Below are positions 18,633 to 42,953 of a stretch of 64,000 nt of DNA, piece by piece; position 1 is the stretch's first letter; each line of letters begins with the position of its first letter. This stretch comes from Oryzias latipes (lineage: Eukaryota > Chordata > Actinopteri > Beloniformes > Adrianichthyidae): contig NC_019864.2 in assembly GCF_002234675.1 (NCBI RefSeq), forward strand, positions 10,130,129 through 10,194,128. Direction: 5' to 3'. The notes beneath the pieces are model-generated. The model had not been told where the DNA came from and ran no database searches. It worked only from the letters and a program-made list of their open reading frames with translations. Both the position numbers and the translations under genes were made by a program.

Positions 18633-18645
18633 GGGCTAGTGGCGC
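18633..18645 (+). pseudogene. First 13 nt of tRNA-Arg(ACG), copy C, cut by the transposon array
   Basis: GGGCTAGTGGCGC equals nucleotides 1-13 of the two intact tRNA-Arg genes, with the same upstream sequence (GGCCACGTG and CGCATG). The next base belongs to the ~7.8 kb transposon. The break falls inside the A box, and the last six bases (TGGCGC) are the duplicated target. The remaining 60 nt of the gene should lie beyond the right end of the array, inside or past the assembly gap; I do not find it after 42953. Confidence 0.9.
18640..18645 (+). repeat. Target-site duplication TGGCGC, left of copy 1
   Basis: Nucleotides 8-13 of tRNA-Arg. The same six bases recur at 26517-26522 and 34280-34285, each immediately before the same transposon start (CCCCGGCCGCTGG). 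Confidence 0.85.
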
Positions 18646-19819
18646 CCCCGGCCGCTGGTTAGTCGAGCTCGATCTCGGTCATTCTTGGTTGTGATATCCA
18701 ATCAAATCACTTACTTGCAACCAAGATTCGAACCTCTCCTCCAATAAGCTGTTCTCTAGCGTACGACATCTCGCCCAAGAGTAACCTAGAATTACCCAAT
18801 CAGTTGCCACGATGAATTTCCGGGGCGATGACAAAGGACTAACCAATGAGATGCAAGAAGAGAGAAGAGCGCTTGAAAAAAAAAAAAAAAAAAAAAAAAG
18901 AGCGCTTCATTTGCATCTGCGAACATCGCTAAAAGTGTCGGAGCAAGATTTGATCCCGTTTTCAACGCTGATCACGACTTTTCACAGTAAGTACGGAGTT
19001 GTCATTGTGAAATTTAATTTTAAATGTTTGTGCTATCGTAATAACACGTTTTTGCTGATGGTATTACCTGTTGTACTCCGCTAGAAAGGTTGTTTTCCTT
19101 TGGTCATTTACAGTAAGTGTCCTCCATTGTTGTTGTTCAACCAGCGGGGTTTTTCCACTAACCGTGTAGTAAAATAACAAGTAAATCTTTTTTAATCGTC
19201 TGAAAGCGAGGCTAACTGAAATGTGTAACCGAACTTTTAGCAAGCAGCGGTGTTTTTCACGTTGGTCATTTACTGTATTGAAAACGTCAGGCCAAAAATA
19301 AAATCAGAGCATCAGCTGCTCAAATATGAATAATAACCGGACCTTTTACGTGTCGATTGCTGCTTCTTTGTGTTTGTTATTTGCCTTTCGGCCGCATGTT
19401 TTACTAGCGAGTACTTTAACACATGCACACGAATACTTTTATTTGTTCAAAGTTATTTTTGTTGTTTTTATTATTAAACACAAGAAAAATTTATGAATGA
19501 ATTATTTCGGGAATGAGTCAGACTGTTGTCCTCAAGCTTTGCAATATGTTATTTTCTTTTGTTGTGTTTAATGTTTAGAATAATAGTAATTAATAATAAT
19601 AATAATTAATAATAATTTAAATTAATAACATTCCGCAAAAAACAAGCAATTGGTATTTAAGAACACACAAAAAAATCAAAGTAAGTAATACAAGTATCCA
19701 TCCAATCAAATAAAACTGGATTAAAGCCTTCCTGTAGCATTTTATTTTTTCATCTTGTGTTTGCACAGCTCATTTTATGGTTTACAATCTGCTTTTCTCA
19801 TTTGATTCATTCAGCTTTT

Positions 19820-22800
19820 ATGATGGAACCCAGATTCAGAAGACTGGCTAGTGGCATTCTGAATTTGTCAGACTCATCTGAAGCCTATTCCTATAAGAAG
19901 GCAAAAAAAGGAAAGCCATGGATGAAGCCCTTGTCCCCAGAAGCAGTACTGGAAAAGGCAACAAAGAACCTGCTGGATCATCAGGGAGATCTTTCCAACA
20001 GAAAGCATCTTCTTGGCTTCTTTGAGATCCAGTTTGGTATTTTCCAGGGCCAGACATTCAAATGGCTGCTGGAAAATGCTTTAGGTTATGCTGCCTACCT
20101 TGTTGCTGCTATGAAGAGAGATCCAACAGGGGGTAGTAAAGACACCAAGGATCATGCCAGCAACAAAGAAAGTTTCAGAGAATACATGGAAATGTTTCCA
20201 TCTGCCAAAACTGCTGTGGCGATGAAAGAGGAGCAGTGGTCACGAGAGAAGACACAGCCTAGTTTGTCCAGCCAGCCGGACCATCGATGGCATCCTCTTC
20301 TTCTCAGACTCCATCAACGTCTAATCCTTCTGCTGCAAGACCTCCCAGTTCACCATCACACCCCAAAACTCCTCAGCCCATCTCCACCGCGTCTCTCTCT
20401 TCCCTATTAGTGGGTAATTTGGCCAAGGACAGAAACATTGAGAAAGCTGTAAAAAGGCTGGCGTCCCCATTTAAAGTCAGACCCTGTAAGAAAACAATTC
20501 TCTTTTTTTCCAAACCCTGAGTTACATTAAATCTTATTGGCAGTGGATGTTAATGCTGTGTTGTTGTTGTTTTTCAGCTTTGATACATGCACGGCCGCAT
20601 TCCACATCCACAACTTTGAACAAGCCAGCTGGATCCCTTTCTTCCTCACCTGCGCTTGTAGGATCCCCCTTCACCCTCGAAGCCTCCCCCTCCTCCTCCT
20701 CCTCCTCCCTCCCAGTCGCAGGACCCTCTTCCCCACACCCAACTGTGGAAACCTCCATCAATCCTCCACAGACACCACCAGCCTTTGGCCCTAAAGCCAG
20801 TGAGCAGTTCTCCACCGCTGCAGGTCCAAAAACTCCCACCACATTTCCACCCGTGTCGAGTGAAGTGGACGACAGCACGCTTCTGGCAGAAGCACTCAGA
20901 TGGGATAAATCTCCCTCAGCAAGTATGTACATTTTATATAGAATTTTTTATGTATTTACTCAAGCATGCATTTAAAGAAAAACACACCACACACACACAC
21001 ACACACCACTGACAAAACATTTTTATTTATATATTTAAACAAAACCCTTTTGCATTTGCTCTGACTGAAAAAGCTTTAAGGTTTAAGTGTCCCCTGAAAT
21101 TTTAAATTGTATCCAAGCACAAATTCTATTAATAGACTTTTTTACCTTCTCTTTTTCCTTTCAGCACAAAGAGTGTGTCTTCCAGCCGGCTGGCTTCACA
21201 CACTGCCTGAGGTGGACCAGAGATGGATGTCCAAAGCTCTTTTCAAATGGACAGCGCAAGGACATCCTGAACTGGACTTCAGCAGGGTGGACAGACTGTG
21301 GTGGTATCCTCCACAATTCCCATTGCACGTCACCAATGTCCCTCAGCCCGAAGACTATTTTGGCAGCCCCCTCTTCCTTTGGATGCCCCGAAAACTCTGG
21401 CAAGTCAAGCTGACATGTCCTCATTCAGATTGTCACAAAGGGCTTCTGACCTCATCTGGTGTTCATCAGAAGATCAGGCAAGTTATTTCTCTGGACATAA
21501 CTTATTTTGTGGCATCTGAATATTTAGTTTGCAAAATATGCAAAAGAAAGGTCATCAGCTGGAGCCATGCCATCGTCTCCCAGCTGGATGTGGGGCACAG
21601 GGGGCAGTTTCCCTGCATCCTCACATCCAAGCTTGCCTGTGACCTGAGGGTGGTCACTTTGATGCGCCAGAGGGGTCTGGGAAACAGCAGCAGCCAGATT
21701 AGGAAGAAGGTGCAGGAGAGTCATTCAGAAGTGTGGCTGAAGAAGACTGTCCAGTACCTGACGGACTGTAAACAAGTCAAAGGGGCTGTTGAAAAGGGTC
21801 TCATAAGACCAGTCACGTTTTCACCTCCCCCTCCAATGCCTATTGTTCCAAAGCACAGGTGGCTGATGCAGGTCTACGCCCAAGATGTTCTCCAGAGGCT
21901 GACTGAGGTCAAGGCCTCAGTGACATCAACTTATGGACGCATCTTGAAGCTGGACTCCACCAAGAAAGTTGCTCGGAAACTGGCTGGAAGGGGTTTTGGA
22001 ACAGCGACCTGAGCAACAAATGTTGGCAATGAGCACGGCCAAATAATAATGTCTGTGCTCACTGCTAGCGAAGGTTTTGGCCTGGGGCCAATGATCGAAG
22101 GACTCATAGGGAGATATGCAGTGGCTGGGGTACCTCCCCCTGAAGTGCTTTACGTCGACAGAGACTGCTGTGGAAACACGCTTCTTCGACGAATGTTCCA
22201 GAAGTGGAAAGACCTTAACATCCGCCTGGACATATGGCACTTCATGAGAAGGTTTTCGGTGGGCTGCACCACGGATTCACACCAGCTGTATGCGTCCTTC
22301 ATGAGGCGCCTCAGCCACTGTCTCTTTATGTGGGATGAGGAAGATCTGACAGCCCTCAAGATCGCAAAGCGCTCCGAACTCTCTGCCAGGCTCACCAATC
22401 CCTCAGATGCTGACGTGCTGAGGTCCATTAGCCGCAGTGAGTTAGCCCTGCACTGCAGGAGAACGACACGTGGCTCTCAGGAGACTCTGGCTCTCATCAA
22501 AAGCCTCATCCAAGCTTTTGATGGGGACACTCTGGGGGTCCCTCTGATCAACTCGGAACGCATGGCTGGCATTTTAGCTGCTCAGGCAAAACATGTGGCC
22601 TGCATCCAGGACCCCGCAGGCATCCAGCTGTACACCAGGACGGGAACAATCCTGAAAGGAGGACATCGTTTGCCCACATACCGCTGTGCCAGAGGTTCAA
22701 CATTCCTTGAATCTTTTCATCTTCACCTGAATAGGTTCATCCCTGGTAAGTTGTTCTTTTATCTTTCCTTGAAACACAAAAATCCTAAAATATTGTAAAA

Positions 22801-25393
22801 AATATAGAAAGCCATATGTATTTATGCATGGAAACGTGTGTTTTGTTTTTTCCATGGATACTACAGGCACCCTGGCAAGTGATGTCTTCTTCCAGGCCTA
22901 CCTGTTAGATGGGCTGGCCAGGTGGAATGAAGACCGCGCTGTAGCCGCCACATCAGACAAGCAGCAGCAGCCATGCTCCTACGACCATCTCCTGCGGCAT
23001 GCTGCTAACAGTTTGTCTGAGGAGGTCCTTGGCCAGGAAATTGTTCCCTATACTGGGCCAAGGAAATACACAGGTATGCACACTTTTTTTGAAAAGAACT
23101 TCAAAACCTTTTTTCTTCTTCTAATGAGTGCTTTGCCTTTTACAGGTGAACTTCTAGGGGTGGAGTACCTTTACCAGCAAACTGGTAAAGTTCTCCAAGA
23201 TTACAGACAGGCTGTTGAAGAGTCGGAGACAATGGACATGGAGATTGAAGACAGCTTCAATGAACCCGAAGAGTTTGAAGACTTCACTGTGGCCACTTTG
23301 GAGCCAGTGAGGACCTTCACAGTCTCTTCAACGTCATCCTTGGCACCCACCAGCAGTCTGTCAGCTCCAGACCCTCAGCCTGGCCCCTCTTGGTCTCCTC
23401 CTCCTCCTGAGGGTCCCTCAGCGAGTGCGACACACTCAGCGCCTGGACCTACATCACCATCTCCCTCTTCATCACCTTCCGCCACCACCTCTGTTCCCCC
23501 TTGTGTCTTATCCCCCGCTGAACAGAGCAGTGAGTTTAGTTCAACTTTTCTATTGAAAAAAGAAAAAGTAAAGTAGTATGTATGTTTTTTATTTATTTAC
23601 CGGTATTTTGTTTTGCAAATGGGAAAAAGGTCTAGGAGTGCTTTCATTATAAGGATTTATCATGTTACTGTTTATTAAGGGATTTGCTTTTTTCTTTTAC
23701 AGCCTCCAAAACAGATCTGCCAGCAACCCCTCAACAGTTGGACTCTTCATGTGACGTAAGACTAAGTTCTTTTCAAAAGCATAAATGTCTTTTTTCTTTT
23801 AATTTGATTCACTAATTGTTGTTCTTGTTTTATAGGATTCTGTCGGCCCTGACAACGTGGAGGGTTATGGGGCCGTGCAGGAGCTGGCTGATTTCTTGGT
23901 CGGCCTCCGGCACAATAACCTTGTGGTGACTGCAGAGGAGTCAAACCGGATCGTTTCCCTGTGGCAGTCATTGGGGGATTATGACAAACAAAAAACGGTT
24001 TACTCCCAGCGTCACCAAGCCCACCTGAAGCAGGGTAGATTTAGAGCAACCAAAAAAATTGTAGCCCCCGGCGTTCAAAGCACAAAAAGGTGAGTAGACA
24101 AAAAACACAAAAGAGCTGAGCCACCAAAAGAAGTGACACAAAACAAAATGTTTGGCTTTAAAATAACACTTTAAATCATATATCCTTGTTTTTTTGTCCT
24201 TGCTTTTCCCCCTCTTTTTTCATTCAGGTGTTTTATCGGGGCTCACAGTCCTGCACAGTGGCCAGACTGCAACCGAGTGTCAGAGGCCATCTTTGTGAGA
24301 CTCTGTGCCTTGTACCCAAACGCCGTCCGATGCGAAGCGAAGAAGGTTTCTCGGTTCACTATGGTGGTGCGAATGTACAGGACGATTAGAGAGTGTGTCG
24401 TCTCAAATGCCAGAATTATGAGCGAGACCACCATCCAGCTCCCAGAAGTAAATGCTGCTACAGTCACACAATGGTAAGTAAATTAGAATGATTTTAATAC
24501 ATGACATTTTCAGTCTATATGAATACATTTTCAACAACATCAAACAGAAAAATATAAGAAGCTGTATTCTCCAGAATGCATAGAGGAAAATCAAAACATT
24601 TTAATCAAAAAATAGGATCAAACAATAGTAGGGGGGGCTTTTTCATTTGTCTTGCATCTTATAAACACAAAGGCAGATGGGGCTGTTCCCCTGTTTTGAT
24701 TCTATTGTTGAACCTTTTTGTTTTGCACATATTTACAGGTACAGCAGGCGGTGCCGGGCACAAGAAAAACTCATTTTAAACCAGGGCATCCCACAACCTG
24801 CTGCTTCCATGGCAGCTACAGAAAAACTTCCAGATCCACTCCAGAAAGGAACACCTTTACAGGTGGGGACCTCAGCTCAGCCGCACATTTTTGTGCTTCC
24901 GCCCAACACTGCTGGGGAGGCAAAACTTAAGGCAAAGCCACAGCTGCAGGCACTTGCACCCCAATTGAGTTCTACACCCTTCATCATCCCATCAGGATCC
25001 ACCTCACAGGTTTTGGTTCCTCCCGTTTTAAATGTCCCATTCAGTTTTGTCCTGCCTCCTCCTCCTGCCGTGCCGATCATACTTGCTGTGCCGCCATCAC
25101 CTCAGCCTCTTTCCAGCACGCCATACACGGCACAACAATACCGAAAGAGGAAAATGGAAGCAGAAAAAATGGGTATTATGAAAAGGAAATACATAAAAAA
25201 AACAGAAACCATAATGTGCAGCAAATGCGGTGGAAACAGACAGCCACCATCCCACCGTCAGTACTTTGGGAACTGGTTTTGTGAAGCAACAGAGACTCAG
25301 TCATTTGACAATTGGAGGGCTGAGCTACAGAAGCGTGGATATGGGAAAAAAAAGAGAGGAAATGACCCACCACCACCAGCACCACCACTTTAA
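19820..25393 (+). pseudogene. Dada-like transposase gene, copy 1, broken
   Basis: Coding exons are 19820-20485, 20578-20922, 21165-22745, 22867-23073, 23146-23529, 23703-23755, 23836-24089, 24228-24473 and 24739-25393. All have GT-AG borders. Compared with copy 2 the first coding exon lacks one G (about 20278), which shifts the frame. The main exon has TGA for TGG (W to stop) at about 22010-22012 and lacks a 12-base stretch (NGRD) near residue 787. The remaining exons agree in length with copy 2. The donor after the main exon (GTAAGT at 22746) is intact here. The product would be truncated before the second catalytic aspartate. Confidence 0.82.
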
Positions 25394-26438
25394 ACAAAAA
25401 GCAGTCCTTGCACAGAAAAACTTGCACATCCAAAGCACCTAATGTTTTATACTGGTTTATATAATTTTTTAAACATTGTAATGATGACACCATCTTTTAT
25501 ATATGTTTTCTATAATATTTTGTTGGTGTTTTCTGTAAGAGTTATTGTGTTTTTTAAGCTTCAAGTTGTCGTTCTTGTTTAAAAGGACCACCACCAGCAC
25601 CACCACAAACAGAGCAGTCCTTGCACAGAAAAATTTGCACATCCCAAAGCACCTATTGTTTTATATTGGTTTATTTTTGTGCTTTTCTATATAGATTTTG
25701 TTTTTTCTAAAGTTAAACATTGTAATGATGATACCATCTTTTATATATTTTTTCTATAATATTTTGTTGATGTTTTCTGTAAGAATTATTGTGTTTTTTA
25801 AGCTTTGAGTTGTATTTGTCATTTAAATTTGCTATTTCAATATTTCAGTATTTGATCAAAATATAATAATTGAATTTTTGGATAGAAAACTGTCATATGG
25901 ATGCCATTTACGGAGGTATTTGCATTAAAGAACTTTTACATGAGCACTTGAGTATTTTCATTTGTGTTCATCTTTTAAATCAACAGTCAGATTTTAGAAG
26001 ATTGTCAATACATTACATCTGTAGTTGTTTTTACACAAATAATTTTATTGTTATGCTGCTGTAGTACATTAATTAGACAATTCATTTTGTTTCAAGATTC
26101 AAAGCAAACTTTATTGTCAATCTCTATAATGTTTTCAAATAAAAAGAAATTTAAATTCATTTTCTCTTCAAACTCCAGTCTAAAGGAATCTAACTTCAAA
26201 TTACAGAATGAAATGACCAACAAATAGGGTGAATATAAATATAAAAAAATAAAGTCACTGTTACAAAAAGGTGAAAAAAAATCTTAATTTTCATATAGTT
26301 TATAATTCCATTATTAATGTCATATAGTTTATAACTTTATTATTAACAAATCTCATTTGCTATGAGGCCTGGCAAACTTGGCAGAAGAGGTTAAGAAAGC
26401 CACGAGGCCAAAAAAAAAACAGTTCGAACGCGTCCGGT

Positions 26439-26455
26439 GCGGGGTTCGAACCCGC
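26439..26455 (-). other. tRNA-like T arm / B box near the transposon right end
   Basis: On the minus strand GCGGG/TTCGAAC/CCCGC is a perfect 5+7+5 T arm with a Pol III B box. Copy 2 has the same site at 34202-34218 with one loop change (TTC to CTC on the plus strand). No matching acceptor or anticodon arm is found upstream, so this is not a complete tRNA gene. Confidence 0.6.
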
Positions 26456-26516
26456 GGCCTCTGCATGCGTTCCTACAAAACTTGAAAGCTTTACCTCATC
26501 TGATGGGCGCAGTCCT

Positions 26517-26522
26517 TGGCGC
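26517..26522 (+). repeat. Target-site duplication TGGCGC between copies 1 and 2
   Basis: Same six bases as the tRNA-Arg target, lying exactly between the end of copy 1 (GCAGTCCT) and the start of copy 2 (CCCCGGCC). Confidence 0.85.
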
Positions 26523-29500
26523 CCCCGGCCGCTGGTTAGTCGAGCTCGATCTCGGTCATTCTTGGTTGTGATATCCAATCAAATCACTTACTTGCAACCA
26601 AGATTCGAACCTCTCCTCCAATAAGCTGTTCTCTAGCGTACGACATCTCGCCCAAGAGTAACCTAGAATTACCCAATCAGTTGCCACGATGAATGTCCGG
26701 GGCGATGACAAAGGACTAACCAATGAGATGCAAGAAGAGAGAAGAGCGCTTGAAGGAAAAAAAAAAAAAAAAAAAAAAAAAAGAGCGCTTCATTTGCATT
26801 TGCGAACATCGCTAAAAGTGTCGAAGCAAGATTTGATCCCGTTTTCAACGTTGATCACGACTTTTCACAGTAAGTACGGAGTTGTCATTGTGAAATTTAC
26901 TTTTAAATGTTTGTGCTATCGTAATAACACGTTTTTGCTGATGGTATTACCTGTCGTACTCCGCTAGAAAGGTTGTTTTCCTTTGGTCATTTACAGTAAG
27001 TGTCCTCCATTGTTGTTGTTCAACCAGCGGGGTTTTTCCACTGACCGTGTAGTAAAATAACAAGTAAATCTTTTTTAATCGTCTGAAAGCGAGGCTAACT
27101 GAAATGTGTAACCGAACTTTTAGCAAGCAGCGGTGTTTTTCACGTTGGTCATTTACTGTATTAAAAACGTCAGGCCAAAAATAAAATCAGAGCATCAGCT
27201 GCTCAAATATGAATAATAACCGGACTTTTTACGTGTCGATTGCTGCTTCTTTGTGTTTGTTATTTGCCTTTCGGCCGCATGTTTTACTAGCGAGTACTTT
27301 AACACATGCACACGAATACTTTTATTTGTTCAAAGTTATTTTTGTTGTTTTTATTATTAAACACAAGAAAAATTTATGAATGAATTATTTCGGGAATGAG
27401 TCAGACTGTTGTCCTCAAGCTTTGCAATATGTTATTTTCTTTTGTTGTGTTTAATGTTTAGAATAATAGTAATTAATAATAATAATAATTAATAATAATT
27501 TAAATTAATAACATTCCGCAAAAAACAAGCAATTGGTATTTAAGAACACACAAAAAAATCAAAGTAAGTAATACAAGTATCCATCCAATCAAATAAAACT
27601 GGATCAAAGCCTTCTGTAGCATTTTATTTTTTCATCTTGTGTTTGCACAGCTCATTTTATGGTTTACAATCTGCTTTTCTCATTTGATTCATTCAGCTTT
27701 TATGATGGAACCCAGATTCAGAAGACTGGCTAGTGGCATTCTGAATTTGTCAGACTCATCTGAAGCCTATTCCTATAAGAAGGCAAAAAAAGGAAAGCCA
27801 TGGATGAAGCCCTTGTCCCCGGAAGCAGTACTGGAAAAGGCAACAAAGAACCTGCTGGATCATCAGGGAGATCTTTCCAACAGAAAGCATCTTCTTGGCT
27901 TCTTTGAGATCCAGTTTGGTATTTTCCAGGGCCAGACATTCAAATGGCTGCTGGAAAATGCTTTAGGTTATGCTGCCTACCTTGTTGCTGCTATGAAGAG
28001 AGATCCAACAGGGGGTAGTAAAGACACCAAGGATCATGCCAGCAACAAAGAAAGTTTCAGAGAATACATGGAAATGTTTCCATCTGCCAAAACTGCTGTG
28101 GCGATGAAAGAGGAGCAGTGGTCACGAGAGAAGACACAGCCTAGTTTGTCCAGCCAGCCGGGACCATCGATGGCATCCTCTTCTTCTCAGACTCCATCAA
28201 CGTCTAATCCTTCTGCTGCAAGACCTCCCAGTTCACCATCACACCCCAAAACTCCTCAGCCCATCTCCACCGCGTCTCTCTCTTCCCTATTAGTGGGTAA
28301 TTTGGCCAAGGACAAAAACATTGAGAAAGCTGTAAAAAGGCTGGCGTCCCCATTTAAAGTCAGACCCTGTAAGAAAACAATTCTCTTTTTTTCCAAACCC
28401 TGAGTTACATTAAATCTTATTGGCAGTGGATGTTAATGCTGTGTTGTTGTTGTTTTTCAGCTTTGATACATGCACGGCCACATTCCACATCCACAACTTT
28501 AAACAAGCCAGCTGGATCCCTTTCTTCCTCACCTGCGCTTGTAGGATCCCCCTTCACCCTCGAAGCCTCCCCCTCCTCCTCCTCCTCCTCCCTCCCAGTC
28601 GCAGGACCCTCTTCCCCACACCCAACTGTGGAAACCTCCATCAATCCTCCACAGACCCCACCAGCCTTTGGCCCTAAAGCCAGTGAGGAGTTCTCCACCG
28701 CTGCAGGTCCAAAAACTCCCACCACATTTCTACCCGTGTCGAGTGAAGTGGACGACAGCACGCTTCTGGCAGAAGCACTCAGATGGGATAAATCTCACTC
28801 AGCAAGTATGTACATTTTATATAGAATTTTTTATGTATTTACTCAAGCATGCATTTAAAGAAAAAAAAAACACACACACACACCACTGACACCAACATTT
28901 TTATTTATATATTTAAACAAAACCCTTTTGCATTTGCTCTGACTGAAAAAGCTTTAAGGTTTAAGTGTCCCCTGAAATTTTAAATTTTATCCATGCACAA
29001 ATTCTATTAATAGACTTTTTACCTTCTCTTTTTCCTTTCAGCACAAAGAGTGTGTCTTCCAGCCGGCTGGCTCCACACACTGCCTGAGGTGGACCAGAGA
29101 TGGATGTCCAAAGCTCTTTTCAAATGGACAGCGCAAGGACATCCTGAACTGGACTTCAGCAGGGTGGACAGACTGTGGTGGTATCCTCCACAATTCCCAT
29201 TGCACGTCACCAATGTCCCTCAGCCCGAAGACTATTTTGGCAGCCCCCTCTTCCTTTGGATGCCCCGAAAACTCTGGCAAGTCAAGCTGACATGTCCTCA
29301 TTCAGATTGCCACAAAGGGCTTCTGACCTCATCTGGTGTTCATCAGAAGATCAGGCAAGTTATTTCTCTGGACATAACTTACTTTGTGGCATCTGAATAT
29401 TTAGTTTGCAAAATATGCAAAAGAAAGGTCATCAGCTGGAGCCATGCCATCGTCTCCCAGCTGGATGTGGGGCACAGGGGGCAGTTTCCCTGCATCCTCA

Positions 29501-32500
29501 CATCCAAGCTTGCCTGTGACCTGAGGGTGGTCACTTTGATGCGCCAGAGGGGTCTGGGAAACAGCAGCAGCCAGATTAGGAAGAAGGTGCAGGAGAGTCA
29601 TTCAGAAGTGTGGCTGAAGAAGACTGTCCAGTACCTGACGGACTGTAAACAAGTCAAAGGGGCTGTTGAAAAGGGTCTCATAAGACCAGTCACGTTTTCA
29701 CCTCCCCCTCCAATGCCTACTGTTCCAAAGCACAGGTGGATGATGCAGGTCTACGCCCAAGATGTTCTCCAGAGGCTGACTGAGGTCAAGGCCTCAGTGA
29801 CATCAACTTATGGACGCATCTTGAAGCTGGACTCCACCAAGAAAGTGGCTCGGAAACTGGCTGGAAGGGGTTTTGGAACAGCGACCTGGGCAACAAATGT
29901 TGGCAATGAGCACGGCCAAATAATAATGTCTGTGCTCACTGCTAGCGAAGGTTTTGGCCTGGGGCCAATGATTGAGGGACTCATAGGGAGATATGCAGTG
30001 GCTGGGGTACCTCCCCCTGAAGTGCTTTACGTCGACAGAGACTGCTGTGGAAACACGCTTCTTCGGCGAATGTTCCAGAAGTGGAAAGACCTTCACATCC
30101 GACTGGACATATGGCACTTCATGGGAAGGTTTTCGGTGGGCTGCACCACGGATTCACACCAGCTGTATGCGTCCTTCATGAGGCGCCTCAGCCACTGTCT
30201 CTTTATGTGGGATGAGGAAGATCTGACAGCCCTCAAGATCGCAAAGCGCTCCGAACTTTCTGCCAGGCTCACCAATCCCTCAGATGCTGACGTGCTGAGG
30301 TCCATTAGCCGCAGTGAGTTAGCCCTGCACTGCAGGAGAACGACACGTGGCTCTCAGGAGACTCTGGCTCTCATCAAAAGCCTCATCCAAGCTTTTGACG
30401 GGGACAATGGCCGCGACACTCTGGGGGTTCCTCTGATCAACTCGGAACGCATGGCTGGCATTTTAGCTGCTCAGGCAAAACATGTGGCCTGCATCCAGGA
30501 CCCCCCAGGCATCCAGCTGTACACCAGGACGGGAACAATCCTGAAAGGAGGACATCGTTTGCCCACATACCGCTGTGCCAGAGGTTCAACATCCCTTGAA
30601 TCTTTTCATCTTCACCTGAATAGGTTCATCCCTGGAAAGTAGTTCTTTTATCTTTCCTTGAAACACAAAAATCCTAAAATATTGTAAATATTGAAAGCCA
30701 TATTTATTTATGCGTGGAAACGTGTGTTTTGTTTTGTTTTTTCCATGGATATTACAGGCACCCTGGCAAGTGATGTCTTCTTCCAGGCCTACCTGTTAGA
30801 TGGGCTGGCCAGGTGGAATGAAGACCGCGCTGTAGCCGCCACATCAGACAAGCAGCAGCAGCCATGCTCCTACGACCATCTCCTGCGGCATGCTGCTAAC
30901 AGTTTGTCTGAGGAGGTCCTTGGCCAGGAAATTGTTCCCTATACTGGGCCAAGGAAATACACAGGTATGCATACTTTTTTTGAAAAGAACTTCAAAACCT
31001 TTATTCTTCTTCTAATGAGTGCTTTGCCTTTTACAGGTGAACTTCTGGGGGTGGAGTACCTTTACCAGCAAACTGGTAAAGTTCTCCAAGATTACAGACA
31101 GGCTGTTGAAGAGTCGGAGACAATGGACATGGAGATTGAAGACAGCTTCAATGAACCCGAAGAGTTTGAAGACTTCACTGTGGCCACTTTGGAGCCAGTG
31201 AGGACCTTCACAGTCTCTTCAACGTCATCTTTGGCACCCACCAGCAGTCTGTCAGCTCCAGACCCTCAGCCTGGCCCCTCTTGGTCTCCTCCTCCTCCTG
31301 AGGGTCCTTCAACGAGTGCGACACACTCAGCGCCTGGACCTACATCACCATCTCCCTCTTCATCACCTTCCGCCACCACCTCTGTTCCCCCTTGTGTCTT
31401 ATCCCCCGCTGAACAGAGCAGTGAGTTCAGTTCAACTTTTCTATTGAAAAAAGAAAAAGTAAAGTAGTATGTATGTTTTTTATTTACTGGTATTTTGTTT
31501 TGCAATTGGAAAAAAGGTCTAGGAGTGCTTTAATTATAAGAATGTATGATGTTACTGTTTATTAAGGGATTTGCTTTTTTCTTTTACAGCCTCCAAAACA
31601 GATCTGCCAGCAACCCCTCAACAGTTGGACTCTTCATGTGACGTAAGACTAAGTTCTTTTCAAAAGCATAAATGTCTTTTTTCTTTTAATTTGATTCACT
31701 AATTGTTGTTCTTGTTTTATAGGATTCTGTCGGCCCTGACAACGTGGAGGGTTATGGGGCCGTGCAGGAGCTGGCTGATTTCTTGGTCGGCCTCCGGCAC
31801 AATAACCTTGTGGTGACTGCAGAGGAGTCAAACCGGATCGTTTCCCTGTGGCAGTCATTGGGGGATTATGACAAACAAAAAACGGTTTACTCCCAGCGTC
31901 ACCAAGCCCACCTGAAGCAGGGTAGATTTAGAGCAACCAAAAAAATTGTAGCCCCCGGCGTCGAAAGCACAAAAAGGTGAGTAGACAAAAAACACACAAG
32001 AGCTGAGCCACCAAAAGAAGTGACACAAAACAAAATGTTTGGCTTTAAAATAATACTTTAAATCATATATCCTTGTTTTTTTGTCCTTGCTTTTCCCCCT
32101 CTTTTTTCATTCAGGTGTTTTATCGGGGCTCACAGTCCTGCACAGTGGCCAGACTGCAACCGAGTGTCAGAGGCCATCTTTGTGAGACTCTGTGCCTTGT
32201 ACCCAAACGCCGTCCGATGCGAAGCGAAGAAGGTTTCTCGGTTCACTATGGTGGTGCGAATGTACAGGACGATTAGAGAGTGTGTCGTCTCAAATGCCAG
32301 AATTATGAGCGAGACCACCATCCAGCTCCCAGAAGTAAATGCTGCTACAGTCACACAATGGTAAGTAAATTAGAATGATTTTAATACATGACATTTTCAG
32401 TCTATATGAATACATTTTCAACAACATCAAACAGAAAAATATAAGAAGCTGTTACCCTGTTGTGATTCTATTGTTGAACCTTTTCGTTTTGCACATATTT

Positions 32501-34279
32501 ACAGGTACAGCAGGCGGTGCCGGGCACAAGAAAAACTCATTTTAAACCAGGGCATCCCACAACCTGCTGCTTCCATGGCAGCTACAGAAAAACTCCCAGA
32601 TCCACTCCAGAAAGGAACACCTTTACAGATGGGGACCTCAGCTCAGCCGCACATTTTTGTGCTTCCGCCCAATACTGCTGGGGAGGCAAAACTTAAGGCA
32701 AAGCCACAGCTGCAGGCACTAGCACCCCAATTGAGTTCTACACCCTTCATCATCCCATCAGGATCCACCTCACAGGTTTTGGTCCCTCCCGTTTTAAATG
32801 TCCCGTTCAGTTTTGTCATGCCTCCTCCTCCTGCCGTGCCGATCATACTTGCTGTGCCGCCATCACCTCAGCCTCTTTCCAGCACGCCATACACGACACA
32901 ACAATACCGAAAGAGGAAAATGGAAGCAGAAAAAATGGGTATTATGAAAAGGAAATACATTAAAAAAACAGAAACCATTACGTGCAGCAAATGTGGTGGA
33001 AACAGACAGCCACCATCCCACCGTCAGTACTTTGGGAACTGGTTTTGTGAAGCAACAGAGACTCAGTCATTTGACAATTGGAGGGCTGAGCTACAGAAGC
33101 GTGGATATGGGAAAAAAAAGAGAGGAAATGACCCACCACCACCAGCACCACCACTTTAAACAAAAAGCAGTCCTTGCACAGAAAAACTTGCACATCCAAA
33201 GCACCTAATGTTTTAAACTGGTTTATATAATTTTTTTAACATTGTAATGATGACACCATCTTTTATATATGTTTTCTATAATATTTTGTTGGTGTTTTCT
33301 GTAAGAGTTATTGTGTTTTTTAAGCTTCAAGTTGTCATTCTTGTTTAAAAGGACCACCACCAGCACCACCACAAACAGAGCAGTCCTTGCACAGAAAAAT
33401 TTGCACATCCAAAGCACCTATTGTTTTATATCGGTTTATTTTTGTGCTTTTCTATATAGATTTTGTTTTTTCTAAAATTAAACATTGTCATGATGATACC
33501 ATCTTTTATATATTTTTTCTATAATATTTTGTTGGTGTTTTCTGTAAGAATTATTGTGTTTTTTATGCTTTGAGTTGTATTTGTCATTTAAATTTGCTAT
33601 TTCAATATTTCAGTATTTGATCAAAATATAATAATTGAATTTTTGGATAGAAAACTGTTCATATGGATGCGCATTTACGGAGGTATTTGCATTAAAGAAC
33701 TTTTACATGAGCACTTGAGTATTTTCATTTGTGTTCATCTTTTTAACAGTCAGATTTTAGAAGATTGTCAATACATTACATCTGTAGTTGTTTTTACACA
33801 AATAATTTTATTGTTATGCTGCTGTAGTACATTAATTAGATTTGTTCAATTCATTTTGTTTCAAGATTCAAAGCAAACTTTATTGTCAATCTTTATAATG
33901 TTTTCAAATACATTTAAATTCATTTTCTCTTCAAACTCCAGTCTAAAGGAATCTAACTTCAAATTACAGAATGAAATGACCAACAAATAGGGTGAATATA
34001 AATATAAAAAAATAAAGTCACTGTTACAAAAAGGTGAAAAAAAATCTTAATTTTCATATAGTTTATAATTCCATTATTAATGTCATATAGTTTATAACTT
34101 TATTATTAACAAATCTCATTTGCTATGAGGCCTGGCAAACTTGGCAGAAGAGGTTAAGAAAGCCACGAGGCCAAAAAAAAAACAGTTCGAACGCGTCCGG
34201 TGCGGGGCTCGAACCCGCGGCCTCTGCATGCGTTCCTACAAAACTTGAAAGCTTTACCTCATCTGATGGGCGCAGTCCT
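26523..34279 (+). mobile_element. tRNA-Arg-inserted DNA transposon (Dada-like), copy 2
   Basis: The 7757 bp copy has the same ends as copy 1 and is the best preserved. It differs from copies 1 and 3 by loss of about 110 bases in the intron before the last exon (near 32452). The first exon donor is GTAAGT at 26870. It is followed directly by TGGCGC and copy 3. Substitutions relative to copy 1 are few, so the array is young. Confidence 0.8.
27702..33159 (+). CDS. Dada-like DDE transposase, ~1467 aa, nine coding exons, near-intact
   Basis: Coding exons 27702-28368, 28461-28805, 29042-30634, 30758-30964, 31037-31420, 31590-31642, 31723-31976, 32115-32360 and 32505-33159 total 4404 nt, a whole number of codons with one terminal stop. 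The start (MMEPRFRRLASG) lies just after an AG acceptor. Residues 1-222 resemble no family I know. About 338-560 form a DUF6729-like region with C422-x4-C427 and C460-x2-C463. The RNase H-like core follows: D601 (LKLDSTKK), D669 (LYVDRDCC), D693xxH696 (LDIWH), E857 (TSLESFHLHLNRF). Then come Pro/Ser-rich linkers and a C-terminal C1410-x2-C1413...H1422...C1431 knuckle. One defect is visible: the donor after the main exon reads GAAAGT instead of GTAAGT, so read-through gives a stop soon after E857. Confidence 0.8.
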
Positions 34280-34285
34280 TGGCGC
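34280..34285 (+). repeat. Target-site duplication TGGCGC between copies 2 and 3
   Basis: Third occurrence of the tRNA-Arg hexamer, again exactly between the transposon end and the next transposon start. Confidence 0.85.
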
Positions 34286-37200
34286 CCCCGGCCGCTGGTT
34301 AGTCGAGCTCGATCTCGGTCATTCTTGGTTGTGATATCCAATCAAATCACTTACTTGCAACCAAGATTCGAACCTCTCCTCCAATAAGCTGTTCTCTAGC
34401 GTACGACATCTCGCCCAAGAGTAACCTAGAATTACCCAATCAGTTGCCACGATGAATTTCTGGGGCGATGACAAAGGACTAACCAATGAGATGCAAGAAG
34501 AGAGAAGAGCGCTTGCAAAAAAAAAAAGAAAAAAAAAAGAGCGCTTCATTTGCATCTGCGAACATCGCTAAAAGTGTCGGAGCAAGATTTGATCCCGTTT
34601 TCAACGCTGATCACGACTTTTCACAGTAAGTACGGAGTTGTCATTGTGAAATTTAATTTTAAATGTTTGTGCTATCGTAATAACACGTTTTTGCTGATGG
34701 TATTACCTGTTGTACTCCGCTAGAAAGGTTGTTTTCCTTTGGTCATTTACAGTAAGTGTCCTCCATTGTTGTTGTTCAACCAGCGGGGTTTTTCCACTAA
34801 CCGTGTAGTAAAATAACAAGTAAATCTTTTTTAATCGTCTGAAACGAGGCTAACTGAAATGTGTAACCGAACTTTTAGCAAGCAGCGGTGTTTTTCACGT
34901 TTGTCATTTACTGTATTAAAAACGTCAGGCCAAAAATAAAATCAGAGCATCAGCTGCTCAAATATGAATAATAACCGGACCTTTTACGTGTCGATTGCTG
35001 CTTCTTTGTGTTTGTTATTTGCCTTTCGGCCGCATGTTTTACTAGCGAGTACTTTAACACATGCACACGAATACTTTTATTTGTTCAAAGTTATTTTTGT
35101 TGTTTTTTTATTAAACACAAGAAAATTTATGAATGAATTATTTCGGGAATGAGTCAGACTGTTGTCCTCAAGCTTTGCAATATGTTATTTTCTTTGTTTG
35201 TTAGTTAATAGTAATTAATAATAATAATAATTAATAATAATTTAAATTAATACATTCCGCAAAAAAATTGGTATTAAATGTCATAAAAACAAATCGTAAA
35301 GTAAGATATACCTAAACTCAAATAAAACTGATAAGCCTTCTTAGCATTTTATTTTTCATCTTGTGTTTGCACAGCTCATTTTATGGTTTACAATCTGCTT
35401 TTCTCATTTGATTCATTCAGCTTTTATGATGGAACCCAGATTCAGAAGACTGGCTAGTGGCATTCTGAATTTGTCAGACTCATCTGAAGCCTATTCCTAT
35501 AAGAAGCAAAAAAAGGAAAGCCATGGATGAAGCCTTGTCCCCGAGAAGCAGTACTGGAAAAGGCAACAAAGAACCTGCTGGATCATCAGGGAGATCTTTC
35601 CAACAGAAAGCATCTTCTTGGCTTCTTTGAGATCCAGTTTGGTATTTTCCAGGGCCAGACATTCAAATGGCTGCTGGAAAATGCTTTAGGTTATGCTGCC
35701 TACCTTGTTGCTGCTATGAAGAGAGATCCAACAGGGGGTAGTAAAGACACCAAGGATCATGCCAGCAACAAAGAAAGTTTCAGAGAATACATGGAAATGT
35801 TTCCATCTGCCAAAACTGCTGTGGCGATGAAAGAGGAGCAGTGGTCACGAGAGAAGACACAGCCTAGTTTGTCCAGCCAGCCGGGACCATCGATGGCATC
35901 CTCTTCTTCTCAGACTCCATCAACGTCTAATCCTTCTGCTGCAAGACCTCCCAGTTCACCATCACACCCCAAAACTCCTCAGCCCATCTCCACCGCGTCT
36001 CTCTCTTCCCTATTAGTGGGTAATTTGGCCAAGGACAAAAACATTGAGAAAGCTGTAAAAAGGCTGGCGTCCCCATTTAAAGTCAGACCCTGTAAGAAAA
36101 CAATTCTCTTTTTTTCCAAACCCTGAGTTACATTAAATCTTATTGGCAGTGGATGTTAATGCTGTGTTGTTGTTGTTTTTCAGCTTTGATACATGCACGG
36201 CCATTCCACATCCACAACTTTAAACAAGCCAGCTGGATCCCTTTCTTCCTCACCTGCGCTTGTAGGATCCCCCTTCACCCTCGAAGCCTCCCCTCCTCCT
36301 CCTCCTCCTCCTCCCAGTAGCAGGACCCTCTTCCCCACACCCAACTGTGGAAACCTCCATCAATCCTCCACAGACACCACCAGCCTTTGGCCCTAAAGCC
36401 AGTGAGGAGTTCTCCACCGCTGCAGGTCCAAAAACTCCCACCACATTTCCACCGTGTCGAGTGAAGTGGACGACAGCACGCTTCTGGCAGAAGCACTCAG
36501 ATGGGATAAATCTCACTCAGCAAGTATGTACATTTTATATAGAATTTTTTATGTATTTACTCAAGCATGCATTTAAAGAAAAAAAACACACACACACACA
36601 CACCACTGACACCAACATTTTTATTTATATATTTAAACAAAACCCTTTTGCATTTGCTCTGACTGAAAAAGCTTTAAGGTTTAAGTGTCCCCTGAAATTT
36701 TAAATTTTATCCATGCACAAATTCTATTAATAGACTTTTTACCTTCTCTTTTTCCTTTCAGCACAAAGAGTGTGTCTTCCAGCCGGCTGGCTCACACACT
36801 GCCTGAGGTGGACCAGAGATGGATGTCCAAAGCTCTTTTCAAATGGACAGCGCAAGGACATCCTGAACTGGACTTCAGCAGGGTGGACAGACTGTGGTGG
36901 TATCCTCCACAATTCCCATTGCACGTCACCAATGTCCCTCAGCCCGAAGACTATTTTGGCAGCCCCTCTTCCTTTGGATGCCCCGAAAACTCTGGCAAGT
37001 CAAGCTGACATGTCCTCATTCAGATTGCCACAAAGGGCTTCTGACCTCATCTGGTGTTCATCAGAAGATCAGGCAAGTTATTTCTCTGGACATAACTTAC
37101 TTTGTGGCATCTGAATATTTAGTTTGCAAAATATGCAAAAGAAAGGTCATCAGCTGGAGCCATGCCATCGTCTCCCAGCTGGATGTGGGGCACAGGGGGC

Positions 37201-40200
37201 AGTTTCCCTGCATCCTCACATCCAAGCTTGCCTGTGACCTGAGGGTGGTCACTTTGATGCGCCAGAGGGGTCTGGGAAACAGCAGCAGCCAGATTAGGAA
37301 GAAGGTGCAGGAGAGTCATTCAGAAGTGTGGCTGAAGAAGACTGTCCAGTACCTGACGGACTGTAAACAAGTCAAAGGGGCTGTTGAAAAGGGTCTCATA
37401 AGACCAGTCACGTTTTCACCTCCCCCTCCAATGCCTACTGTTCCAAAGCACAGGTGGATGATGCAGGTCTACGCCCAAGATGTTCTCCAGAGGCTGACTG
37501 AGGTCAAGGCCTCAGTGACATCAACTTATGGACGCATCTTGAAGCTGGACTCCACCAAGAAAGTGGCTCGGAAACTGGCTGGAAGGGGTTTTGGAACAGC
37601 GACCTGGGCAACAAATGTTGGCAATGAGCACGGCCAAATAATAATGTCTGTGCTCACTGCTAGCGAAGGTTTTGGCTGGGGCCAATGATCGAAGGGCTAA
37701 TAAGGAGATATGCAGTGGCTGGGGTACCTCCCCCTGAAGTGCTTTACGTCGACAGAGACTGCTGTGGAAACACGCTTCTTCGGCGAATGTTCCAGAAGTG
37801 GAAAGACCTTCACATCCGCCTGGACATATGGCACTTCATGAGAAGGTTTTCGGTGGGCTGCACCACGGATTCACACCAGCTGTATGCATCCTTCATGAGG
37901 CGCCTCAGCCACTGTCTCTTTATGTGGGATGAGGAAGATCTGACAGCCCTCAAGATCGCAAAGCGCTCCGAACTTTCTGCCAGGCTCACCAATCCCTCAG
38001 ATGCTGACGTGCTGCGGTCCATTAGCCGCAGTGAGTTAGCCCTGCACTGCAGGAGAACGACACGTGGCTCTCAGGAGACTCTGGCTCTCATCAAAAGCCT
38101 CATCCAAGCTTTTGATGGGGACACTCTGGGGGTCCCTCTGATCAACTCGGAACGCATGGCTGGCATTTTAGCTGCTCAGGCAAAACATGTGGCCTGCATC
38201 CAGGACCCCAGGCATCCAGCTGTACACCAGGACGGGAACAATCCTGAAAGGAGGACATCGTTTGCCCACATACCGCTGTGCCAGAGGTTCAACATCCCTT
38301 GAATCTTTTCATCTTCACCTGAATAGGTTCATCCCTGGTAAGTTGTTCTTTTATCTTTCCTTGAAACACAAAAATCCTAAAATATTGTAAAAAATATAGA
38401 AAGCCATATGTATTTATGCATGGAAACGTGTGTTTTGTTTTTTCCATGGATACTACAGGCACCCTGGCAAGTGATGTCTTCTTCCAGGCCTACCTGTTAG
38501 ATGGGCTGGCCAGGTGGAATGAAGACCGCGCTGTAGCCGCCACATCAGACAAGCAGCAGCAGCCATGCTCCTACGACCATCTCCTGCGGCATGCTGCTAA
38601 CAGTTTGTCTGAGGAGGTCCTTGGCCAGGAAATTGTTCCCTATACTGGGCCAAGGAAATACACAGGTATGCACACTTTTTTTGAAAAGAACTTCAAAACC
38701 TTTTTTCTTCTTCTAATGAGTGCTTTGCCTTTTACAGGTGAACTTCTAGGGGTGGAGTACCTTTACCAGCAAACTGGTAAAGTTCTCCAAGATTACAGAC
38801 AGGCTGTTGAAGAGTCGAGACAATGGACATGGAGATTGAAGACAGCTTCAATGAACCCGAAGAGTTTGAAGACTTCACTGTGGCCACTTTGGAGCCAGTG
38901 AGGACCTTCACAGTCTCTTCAACGTCATCCTTGGCACCCACCAGCAGTCTGTCAGCTCCAGACCCTCAGCCTGGCCCCTCTTGGTCTCCTCCTCCTCCTG
39001 AGGGTCCTTCAACGAGTGCGACACACTCAGCGCCTGGACCTACATCACCATCTCCCTCTTCATCACCTTCCGCCACCACCTCTGTTCCCCCTTGTGTCTT
39101 ATCCCCCGCTGAACAGAGCAGTGAGTTTAGTTCAACTTTTCTATTGAAAAAAGAAATAAGTAAAGTAGTATGTATGTTTTTTATTTATTTACCGGTATTT
39201 TGTTTTGCAAATGGGAAAAAGGTCTAGGAGTGCTTTCATTATAAGGATTTATCATGTTACTGTTTATTAAGGGATTTGCTTTTTTCTTTTACAGCCTCCA
39301 AAACAGATCTGCCAGCAACCCCTCAACAGTTGGACTCTTCATGTGACGTAAGACTAAGTTCTTTTCAAAAGCATAAATGTCTTTTTTCTTTTAATTTGAT
39401 TCACTAATTGTTGTTCTTGTTTTATAGGATTCTGTCGGCCCTGACAACGTGGAGGGTTATGGGGCCGTGCAGGAGCTGGCTGATTTCTTGGTCGGCCTCC
39501 GGCACAATAACCTTGTGGTGACTGCAGAGGAGTCAAACCGGATCGTTTCCCTGTGGCAGTCATTGGGGGATTATGACAAACAAAAAACGGTTTACTCCCA
39601 GCGTCACCAAGCCCACCTGAAGCAGGGTAGATTTAGAGCAACCAAAAAAATTGTAGCCCCCGGCGTCAAAGCACAAAAAGGTGAGTAGACCAAAAACACA
39701 AGAGCTGAGCCACCAAAAGAAGTGACACAAAACAAAATGTTTGGTTTTAAAATAACACTTTAAATCATATATCCTTGTTTTTTTGTCCTTCTTTTCCCCT
39801 CTTTTTTCATTCAGGTGTTTTATCGGGGCTCACAGTCCTGCACAGTGGCCAGACTGCAACCGAGTGTCAGAGGCCATCTTTGTGAGACTCTGTGCCTTGT
39901 ACCCAAACGCCGTCCGATGCGAAGGAAGAAGGTTTCTCGGTTCACTATGGTGGTGCGAATGTACAGGACGATTAGAGAGTGTGTCGTCTCAAATGCCAGA
40001 ATTATGAGCGAGACCACCATCCAGCTCCCAGAAGTAAATGCTGCTACAGTCACACAATGGTAAGTAAATTAGAATGATTTTAATACATGACATTTTCAGT
40101 CTTATGAATACATTTTCAACAACATCAAACAGAAAAATATAAGAAGCTGTATCCTCCAGAATGCATAGAGGAAAATCAAAACTTTAATCAAAAAATGGAT

Positions 40201-41953
40201 CAAACAATAGTAGGGGGGTTTTTCATTTGTCTTGCATCTTATAAACACAAAGGCAGTGGGCTGTTCCCTGTTTTGATTCTATTGTTGAACCTTTTGTTTG
40301 TATTTACAGGTACAGCAGGCGGTGCCGGGCACAGAAAAACTATTTTAAACCAGGGCATCCCACAACCTGCTGCTTCCATGGCAGCTACAGAAAAACTTCC
40401 AGATCCACTCCAGAAAGGAACACCTTTACAGGTGGGGACCTCAGCTCAGCCGCACATTTTTGTGCTTCCGCCCAACACTGCTGGGGAGGCAAAACTTAAG
40501 GCAAAGCCACAGCTGCAGGCACTTGCACCCCAATTGAGTTCTACACCCTTCATCATCCCATCAGGATCCACCTCACAGGTTTTGGTTCCTCCCGTTTTAA
40601 ATGTCCCATTCAGTTTTGTCCTGCCTCCTCCTCCTGCCGTGCCGATCATACTTGCTGTGCCGCCATCACCTCAGCCTCTTTCCAGCACGCCATACACGCA
40701 CAACAATACCGAAAGAGGAAAATGGAAGCAGAAAAAATGGGTATTATGAAAAGGAAATACATAAAAAAAACAGAAACCATAAGTGCAGCAAATGCGGTGG
40801 AAACAGACAGCCACCATCCCACCGTCAGTACTTTGGGAACTGGTTTTGTGAAGCAACAGAGACTCAGTCATTTGACAATTGGAGGGCTGAGCTACAGAAG
40901 CGTGGATATGGGAAAAAAAAGAGAGGAAATGACCCACCACCACCAGCACCACCACTTTAAACAAAAAGCAGTCCTTGCACAGAAAAACTTGCACATCCAA
41001 AGCACCTAATGTTTTATACTGGTTTATATAATTTTTTAAACATTGTAATGATGACACCATCTTTTATATATGTTTTCTATAATATTTTGTTGGTGTTTCT
41101 GTAAGAGTTATTGTGTTTTTTAAGCTTCAAGTTGTCGTTCTTGTTTAAAAGGACCACCACCAGCACCACCACAAACAGAGCAGTCCTTGCACAGAAAAAT
41201 TTGCACATCCCAAAGCACCTATTGTTTTATATTGGTTTATTTTTGTGCTTTTCTATATAGATTTTGTTTTTTCTAAAGTTAAACATTGTAATGATGATAC
41301 CATCTTTTATATATTTTTTCTATAATATTTTGTTGTGTTTTCTGTAAGAATTATTGTGTTTTTTAAGCTTTGAGTTGTATTTGTCATTTAAATTTGCTAT
41401 TTCAATATTTCAGTATTTGATCAAAATATAATAATTGAATTTTTGGATAGAAAACTGTCATATGGATGCCATTTACGGAGGTATTTGCATTAAAGAACTT
41501 TTACATGAGCACTTGAGTATTTTCATTTGTGTTCATCTTTTAAATCAACAGTCAGATTTTAGAAGATTGTCAATACATTACATCTGTAGTTGTTTTTACA
41601 CAAATAATTTATTGTTATGCTGCTGTAGTACATTAATTAGACAATTCATTTTGTTTCAAGATTCAAAGCAAACTTTATTGTCAATCTCTATAATGTTTTC
41701 AAATATAAAAGAAATTTAAATTCATTTTCTCTTCAAACTCCAGTCTAAAGGAATCTAACTTCAAATTACAGAATGAAATGACCAACAAATAGGGTGAATA
41801 TAAATATAAAAAAATAAAGTCACTGTTACAAAAAGGTGAAAAAAAATCTTAATTTTCATATAGTTTATAATTCCATTATTAATGTCATATAGTTTATAAC
41901 TTTATTATTAACAAATCTCATTTGCTATGAGGCCTGGCAAACTTGGCAGAAGA
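34286..41953 (+). mobile_element. tRNA-Arg-inserted DNA transposon (Dada-like), copy 3, right end in gap
   Basis: Same start and order as copies 1 and 2. The sequence stops at the N run, about 130 bases short of the expected right end (copy 2 continues past GGCAGAAGAGG for that distance). Many one-base losses set it apart, most heavily in the AT-rich part 35200-35345. Substitutions group it with copy 2 at some places and with copy 1 at others. Confidence 0.78.
35426..40960 (+). pseudogene. Dada-like transposase gene, copy 3, multiply frameshifted as assembled
   Basis: The exons correspond to 35426-36091, 36184-36523, 36762-38337, 38459-38665, 38738-39120, 39295-39347, 39428-39680, 39815-40059 and 40310-40960. 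All splice borders, including the GTAAGT donor at 38338, are kept. Seven of nine coding exons differ in length from copies 1 or 2 by 1-5 bases (for example 383 against 384, 253 against 254, 245 against 246, 651 against 655). Substitutions are scarce. That pattern, next to a gap, fits consensus errors in a poorly assembled repeat as well as real decay. Confidence 0.75.
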
Positions 41954-42953
41954 NNNNNNNNNNNNNNNNNNNNNNNNNNNNNNNNNNNNNNNNNNNNNNN
42001 NNNNNNNNNNNNNNNNNNNNNNNNNNNNNNNNNNNNNNNNNNNNNNNNNNNNNNNNNNNNNNNNNNNNNNNNNNNNNNNNNNNNNNNNNNNNNNNNNNNN
42101 NNNNNNNNNNNNNNNNNNNNNNNNNNNNNNNNNNNNNNNNNNNNNNNNNNNNNNNNNNNNNNNNNNNNNNNNNNNNNNNNNNNNNNNNNNNNNNNNNNNN
42201 NNNNNNNNNNNNNNNNNNNNNNNNNNNNNNNNNNNNNNNNNNNNNNNNNNNNNNNNNNNNNNNNNNNNNNNNNNNNNNNNNNNNNNNNNNNNNNNNNNNN
42301 NNNNNNNNNNNNNNNNNNNNNNNNNNNNNNNNNNNNNNNNNNNNNNNNNNNNNNNNNNNNNNNNNNNNNNNNNNNNNNNNNNNNNNNNNNNNNNNNNNNN
42401 NNNNNNNNNNNNNNNNNNNNNNNNNNNNNNNNNNNNNNNNNNNNNNNNNNNNNNNNNNNNNNNNNNNNNNNNNNNNNNNNNNNNNNNNNNNNNNNNNNNN
42501 NNNNNNNNNNNNNNNNNNNNNNNNNNNNNNNNNNNNNNNNNNNNNNNNNNNNNNNNNNNNNNNNNNNNNNNNNNNNNNNNNNNNNNNNNNNNNNNNNNNN
42601 NNNNNNNNNNNNNNNNNNNNNNNNNNNNNNNNNNNNNNNNNNNNNNNNNNNNNNNNNNNNNNNNNNNNNNNNNNNNNNNNNNNNNNNNNNNNNNNNNNNN
42701 NNNNNNNNNNNNNNNNNNNNNNNNNNNNNNNNNNNNNNNNNNNNNNNNNNNNNNNNNNNNNNNNNNNNNNNNNNNNNNNNNNNNNNNNNNNNNNNNNNNN
42801 NNNNNNNNNNNNNNNNNNNNNNNNNNNNNNNNNNNNNNNNNNNNNNNNNNNNNNNNNNNNNNNNNNNNNNNNNNNNNNNNNNNNNNNNNNNNNNNNNNNN
42901 NNNNNNNNNNNNNNNNNNNNNNNNNNNNNNNNNNNNNNNNNNNNNNNNNNNNN
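41954..42953. other. Assembly gap, 1000 N
   Basis: Exactly 1000 N, the conventional size for a gap of unknown length. It cuts copy 3 of the transposon array on its left and a pogo-like remnant on its right. Long open frames reported across it are artefacts. Confidence 1.

Follow-up and report, generated by a model that had tools for sequence, protein, structure and literature searches.

The window considered here is a 64,000-bp stretch of the Oryzias latipes genome (contig C6, 10130129-10194128), and the genome searched comprised 734 Mb in 25 contigs. The window contains a tRNA-Arg(ACG) gene, the third of a tRNA cassette array, which is broken off after its nucleotides 8-13 (TGGCGC) and followed by three copies of one transposon, assigned below to the Dada superfamily. 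The copies are arranged head to tail on the same strand, and a single TGGCGC stands ahead of each of them (Table 1). At 18640, 26517 and 34280 this hexamer is followed by the 5' start of the element, CCCCGGCCGCTGG, and at the latter two positions it is immediately preceded by the 3' terminus, GATGGGCGCAGTCCT. A preliminary description had reported at least three copies of about 7.8 kb in the same orientation, starting in the tRNA-Arg gene at 18633, with TGGCGC before copy 1 and between the copies and with the same ends each time. The coordinates, junctions and identities among the copies confirm this arrangement.

Copies 1 and 2 are complete, while copy 3 runs into an assembly gap, which hides the right border of the array, the hexamer belonging to it and the total copy number; the array thus holds at least three copies. 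No match to the element was found between the gap and the end of the window, and the next 20 kb past the window contain neither an element match nor the exact tRNA-Arg target string. The right half of tRNA-Arg, searched as a 28-nt pattern with up to three mismatches, was found only in the two intact genes upstream of the insertion (13908 and 17297). ARAGORN detected zero tRNAs in the 20 kb downstream or the 30 kb upstream of the window.

Table 1 Features of the array and its target gene (positions in the window)
Feature	Position	Strand	Remarks
tRNA cassette array upstream of the insertion	13005..18508	+	repeats of Lys / intron-containing tRNA / Arg; gene positions 13005, 13681, 13895, 14358, 17071, 17284, 17746, 18420 (ARAGORN, Rfam, self-alignment)
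5' piece of third tRNA-Arg(ACG)	18633..18645	+	acceptor strand GGGCTAG plus nucleotides 8-13 TGGCGC
Hexamer TGGCGC, left target-site copy, ahead of copy 1	18640..18645	+	
Dada copy 1	18646..26516	+	7871 bp; transposase gene 19820-25393
Hexamer TGGCGC, junction of copies 1/2	26517..26522	+	
Dada copy 2	26523..34279	+	7757 bp
Transposase gene of copy 2	27702..33159	+	seven-exon model, 1486 aa; Pfam DUF6729
Hexamer TGGCGC, junction of copies 2/3	34280..34285	+	
Dada copy 3	34286..41953	+	7668 bp visible; 3' end in gap; noisy sequence
Assembly gap, covering right end of array	41954..42953	.	1000 N

Assignment of the element to Dada

Based on its domain, catalytic motifs, zinc fingers, ends and target, the element is a Dada transposon, as the preliminary description had proposed. 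Exon 3 of the copy 2 transposase gene matches Pfam DUF6729 with an E value of 4.8e-90. The gene model of copy 2 reads in frame and contains a DDE triad (D601, D669 and E857) as well as a DxxH motif at 693. The D-D distance of 68 is identical to that published for Dada-U6_DR (PMC3706591), and the D-E distance is 188 compared to 176 given there. An N-terminal CCCC zinc finger (C422, C427, C460, C463) and a C-terminal CCHC zinc finger (C1429, C1432, H1441, C1450) show spacings of 5/33/3 and 3/9/9, compared to 5/35/3 and 3/10/9 in the same source.

The protein search yielded 303 matches, 120 of which were listed, and 116 of the latter were aligned with copy 2. Among the resulting 117 sequences, D601 is conserved in 103, D669 in 108, D693 in 116, H696 in 112 and E857 in 105, and the four N-terminal cysteines are kept in 116 or 117. 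The tree places copy 2 together with Oryzias latipes proteins (support 0.954-1.0), and the relatives from fish around them carry no labels. The best relative, 99% identical in the searched region, is annotated as Oryzias latipes; the proteins of this species among the matches listed (P0001, P0003 and P0004) are 91-99% identical to copy 2 in that region, but only one catalytic residue of three is retained in P0003.

The length of 7757-7902 bp lies within the range of the superfamily (4666-10979 bp), and the gene has introns, as Dada genes do. Terminal inverted repeats are absent: when the two ends are compared, 0 of the outermost 7 positions pair and 13 of the outer 30. Comparison of the two ends for subterminal inverted repeats gave no notable repeat.

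Dada elements target multicopy small RNA genes, and the array element lies in a tRNA-Arg(ACG) gene. The exact 18-nt target, GTGGCGCAATGGATAACG, is intact in only three assembled genes, two in the window and one tRNA-Arg gene on contig C5, so that 'multicopy' is modest in this assembly; the count is a lower bound, since tRNA arrays may be missing from an assembly and the count is confined to this exact target rather than to all tRNA genes containing TGGCGC. Of the 6-7 bp target site duplication that flanks Dada elements on both sides, TGGCGC is seen on the left and between the copies, the right border lying in the gap. The Dada-tR transposons of fish, listed for the medaka family Adrianichthyidae, insert at TGGCGC of tRNA-Arg nucleotides 8-13, followed by AA (Kojima 2022, PMC8869645). 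Hexamer, position and following AA are the same in the array. Based on its target site and this published description, the element is assigned as putative Dada-tR-type.

A subterminal motif common to element ends and target has been published for Dada-U6 and Dada-U1. In the array element, the 3' end contains CATCAGA and the tRNA has CATCTGA, each beginning 12 nt from the hexamer, but target mimicry was dropped, the shuffle p value of this candidate motif being only 0.04. Ends resembling a tRNA were dropped as well. The T-arm-like palindrome GGTTCGAACCC at 26443-26453, which copy 1 carries 63 bp from its 3' terminus, differs by one base in copy 2, and up to an E value of 5 Rfam gave no tRNA match within the element. 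Near the 3' end of every copy a 101-bp stretch is present twice, 92-94% alike (25469-25569 and 25713-25813 in copy 1, with counterparts in copies 2 and 3).

The fold was modelled for a relative of the window protein, P0010, from a 63-row alignment (mean pLDDT 83.3). By both methods its top match among solved structures was ISCth4 of the IS256 family, with a low TM-score of 0.26 across the whole model. Retroviral integrases and Mu transposase came next, and among the families listed in the fold search Hermes (hAT) was matched weakly (E 0.068). A sequence search of the solved structures gave 0 matches at E 10 or better.

Divergence, mosaicism and the solitary C10 copy

Contig C10 carries a solitary copy (27700135-27708036) that is full-length and has the same termini, and a near-full relative, 96.7-97.0% identical, was found on contig C7. 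Over aligned bases, the array copies are 98.80% (copies 1/2), 98.96% (1/3) and 98.49% (2/3) identical. The array pairs carry private indels and differ by about 82, 91 and 113 substitutions (80 to 114), compared to 83, 88 and 84 between array copies and the C10 copy, with the counts for copy 3 inflated by its sequence noise. Divergence within the array is therefore about the same as divergence from the C10 copy (98.5-98.9% identity).

The differences between the copies show purifying selection. With codons containing gaps or stops dropped, copies 1/2, 2/3 and 1/3 have dN/dS ratios of 0.18, 0.13 and 0.29, in each case below neutrality (p 1.5e-8, 2.4e-9 and 9e-4, respectively). This indicates that the differences between neighbours mostly arose in lineages with a selected transposase.

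Shared-derived sites were determined with the C7 relative as outgroup, dropping columns that were gapped, had more than two states or lay within 10 columns of an indel. Of 35 such sites, 25 unite the C10 copy with some of the array copies, and the other 10 are array-only. The grouping changes blockwise, with 7 of 34 neighbouring sites incompatible compared to 18.3 expected (p 5e-5), and runs tests on the three array copies yielded p values of 6e-5 with near-gap sites dropped (n 67) and 8.6e-4 unfiltered (n 80). A 12-bp deletion is common to copies 1 and 3 and absent in C10, C7 and the nine protein relatives examined; residue 571 unites copies 2 and 3 with two of these nine relatives, and residue 653 unites copies 1 and 2. 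Judged from these sequence patterns, the array copies are recombination mosaics. Exchange limited to the array was ruled out, because the C10 copy shares segments and recombination must thus have reached beyond the array.

In copy 1 the catalytic region of the transposase gene is interrupted by an in-frame stop codon, and 1 nt is deleted from exon 1. In copy 2 the splice donor of exon 3 is lost, and residue 699 beside the DxxH motif is G (R in 107 of the 117 aligned sequences). Copy 2 also lacks a 121-bp stretch that copies 1 and C10 contain and that is almost complete in copy 3. Compared to copy 1, 40 of the 44 indels of copy 3 are bases absent from copy 3; the missing single bases are probably consensus errors near the contig end. 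Activity of the array copies is not supported, given the stop codon in copy 1 and the splice donor loss in copy 2.

The C10 copy lies within a tRNA-Leu gene, on the opposite strand, with TGGCGC on both sides. The intact site was searched as a pattern of 12 fixed, 14 free and 6 fixed bases in a single spacing. All 57 genome matches read G[GC]ACT[CT]AAGATCCA in the free bases, and ARAGORN identified tRNA-Leu at both pattern sites checked. In the occupied gene these 14 target bases are replaced by TGGCGC, element and TGGCGC, so the flanking hexamer is not a duplication of the tRNA-Leu target; the tRNA-Arg hexamer seems to have been carried along and the target bases lost. Replaced hexamers have been published for Dada-tA and Dada-tY (PMC3706591, in part; PMC8869645), and the C10 copy is a further case. 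Its right junction is followed by AACGCCTTAA, which is similar to the AGCGCCTTAG following the published Dada-tL site (PMC8869645). The last 12 bases of the copy, GGGCGCAGTCCT, are doubled in tandem (C10:27708013-27708036, L006).

Older relatives with shared termini were also observed, by their 3' ends (L019, L020, L022, L023 and L024; 68-90%) or 5' ends (L044-L048; 75-83%). None of the flanks shown consists of TGGCGC within a tRNA-Arg gene; TGGCAC follows the C7 relative, and the C17 relative (L024) has a tRNA-like stretch on the opposite strand about 60-70 bases past the element end.

Origin of the array

The best reading of the array, which we hold with moderate confidence, is repeated targeted insertion at the duplicated hexamer together with recombination among family members. 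A first Dada-tR-type element would have entered tRNA-Arg(ACG) at nucleotides 8-13, duplicating TGGCGC. The hexamer at its 3' end, with the rest of the tRNA gene behind it, would have remained a usable target, and later family members would have entered this hexamer with unchanged orientation, so that every insertion lengthened the array by one element and one hexamer. Segments would also have been swapped among family members, array copies included, by gene conversion or crossing-over, and defects acquired later. The last copy would be followed at the right border by TGGCGC and AATGGATAACG. As suggested by Kojima 2022 (PMC8869645), the transposase may read mainly the downstream half of its target.

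The exact one-hexamer junctions and the equal divergence of array and C10 copies support repeated insertion, and the 25 of 35 shared-derived sites that involve the C10 copy count in the same direction. Precedents are the adjoining Dada-U1A and Dada-U1B copies and the published formation of transposon tandems by repeated insertion, both described below. Purifying selection on the differences argues against duplication in place and favours several insertions of separately evolving elements. From these results we infer a separate insertion of each copy, and the insertion order. Several points weigh against this reading. Divergence and selection signal alike could have been imported by recombination with active copies elsewhere. 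Copies 1 and 3 share, besides the 12-bp deletion, eight or nine further states compared to copies 2 and C10, which makes them kin over part of their length, as by local exchange or duplication. All three copies lie in one of at least four assembled target genes; with equal choice the chance of this is about 1 in 16, so that the occupied site was favoured or another process helped. The right border of the array is also unseen.

Alternatively, unequal crossing-over between hexamer-element units may have amplified a single insertion, or a single dimer, within the site, which we regard as rather unlikely. Such expansion would preserve the exact period and the head-to-tail order, and identically oriented, exact units are indeed seen. 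The derived 12-bp deletion in copies 1 and 3 but not 2 resembles a repeated two-copy unit, and the blockwise mosaicism demonstrates that exchange occurs. However, neighbours are about as divergent as unlinked copies, the C10 copy belongs to the same mosaic, and copies drifting in place would be expected near a dN/dS of 1. That the tandem order is an assembly artefact is very improbable, despite the noise of copy 3 and its ending in a gap. The junction of end, hexamer and start is present twice without a gap, and it has only 6 bp in common with a solitary insertion, which should be too little for an overlap misjoin. The private indels and substitutions between pairs mean that the array is not one sequence assembled three times, and a like arrangement has been published for Dada-U1 (PMC3706591, in part). 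Chance cannot account for seamless repeats of 7.8 kb.

The fold match to ISCth4 brings in a copy-out process as in IS256, in which one end of Dada would attack at a distance of six bases beyond the opposite end, either of its own element or of a sister element, and give circles or tandem dimers in which the six flanking bases form the joint. ISCth4 shares with the Dada element a DDE domain with C/DxxH and has short spacers between abutted ends; it is bacterial, with terminal inverted repeats and 8-bp target duplications, unlike the Dada element (PMC7780238, in part). We consider this origin quite improbable. A shared fold proves no pathway, and a circle or free junction would be invisible in a genome assembly, which shows only the 6-bp spacers of the array. 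Mutator-like elements are in part cut-and-paste transposons. IS256 transposases are also said to resemble these eukaryotic elements (PMC7780238, in part). Comparison of the ends showed that IS256-type terminal inverted repeats are absent, and the element is therefore not classed as IS256-type copy-out/paste-in. A dimer made from a single element would moreover begin with identical copies, unlike those of the array.

A related idea concerns the hexamer itself, which may be part of the moving form of Dada, either as a circle-junction spacer (IS256-like) or as an overhang on the excised ends, a short overhang being retained on such ends in piggyBac-like elements. We regard this as unlikely. If true, a matching site would give an ordinary-looking duplication, a non-matching site such as the C10 tRNA-Leu gene would have its target bases replaced, and an occupied site would gain a unit, resulting in head-to-tail arrays with one hexamer between copies. 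One mechanism would then cover target specificity, the published 'replaced' duplications and the arrays. Dada cutting and joining was left as 'an unknown mechanism' in 2013 (PMC3706591, in part), and the tRNA-Arg hexamer within tRNA-Leu offers a concrete handle on it.

Double insertion of transposons was reportedly described by McGurk and Barbash in 2018, for example for hobo in Drosophila, an element of the hAT superfamily. Two sources describe how transposon tandems can form when a duplicated target is hit repeatedly, and hobo double insertion leads by the same route to expandable head-to-tail tandems (PMC12628747, PMC12368964). Hobo belongs to another superfamily than Dada and has no tRNA gene target. 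Closer to the present array, zebrafish Dada-U1A adjoins Dada-U1B with one GCGAAT between them (Kojima and Jurka 2013, PMC3706591, in part). In the text of that paper these are pairs of two different families in a U1 snRNA gene, whereas a single family contributes at least three copies to the present array, and the gene is one for tRNA-Arg.

The preliminary description had spoken of a notable form of insertion-site reuse and of a pile-up of full-length copies. Reuse is the best-supported reading, but tandem insertions of this kind were already known from the Dada-U1 tandems published in 2013, so this is not the first case; the copies are full-size, yet they are recombination mosaics and not a plain untouched stack. 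Earlier work thus covers Dada, the tRNA-Arg target and pairs of tandem copies separated by one hexamer (PMC3706591, in part; PMC8869645). 'Tandem' appears 0 times in the main text of PMC8869645, which mentions no array, and the literature matches listed for Dada and tandem, figures and supplements not covered, include no report of a three-copy Dada array in a tRNA gene. New are the divergence between neighbours resembling that from the C10 copy, the purifying selection, the mosaicism and the TGGCGC flanks of the C10 copy in tRNA-Leu. The array clearly illustrates how a site-specific DNA transposon can use one target again, here with at least three copies and with evidence that neighbours are separate lineages and not plain local duplicates, and it shows a pile-up of a seeker of small RNA genes where only three intact assembled genes match the 18-nt target.

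Neighbouring features of the window

One tRNA gene with a long insert in the anticodon region is present in each cassette (13681-13769, 17071-17159 and 18420-18508). It was detected by Rfam and missed by the ARAGORN run, and is presumably an intron-containing tRNA-Tyr. One cassette is broken by a 2030-bp insertion (14516-16545) with terminal inverted repeats (26 of the 30 outer bases matching), which is possibly another DNA transposon. Two open frames at 8457-10291 give, from their translation, the impression of non-LTR retrotransposon pieces. A widely separated 652-bp inverted repeat, 95% alike, is formed by 10297-10940 and 56040-56691.
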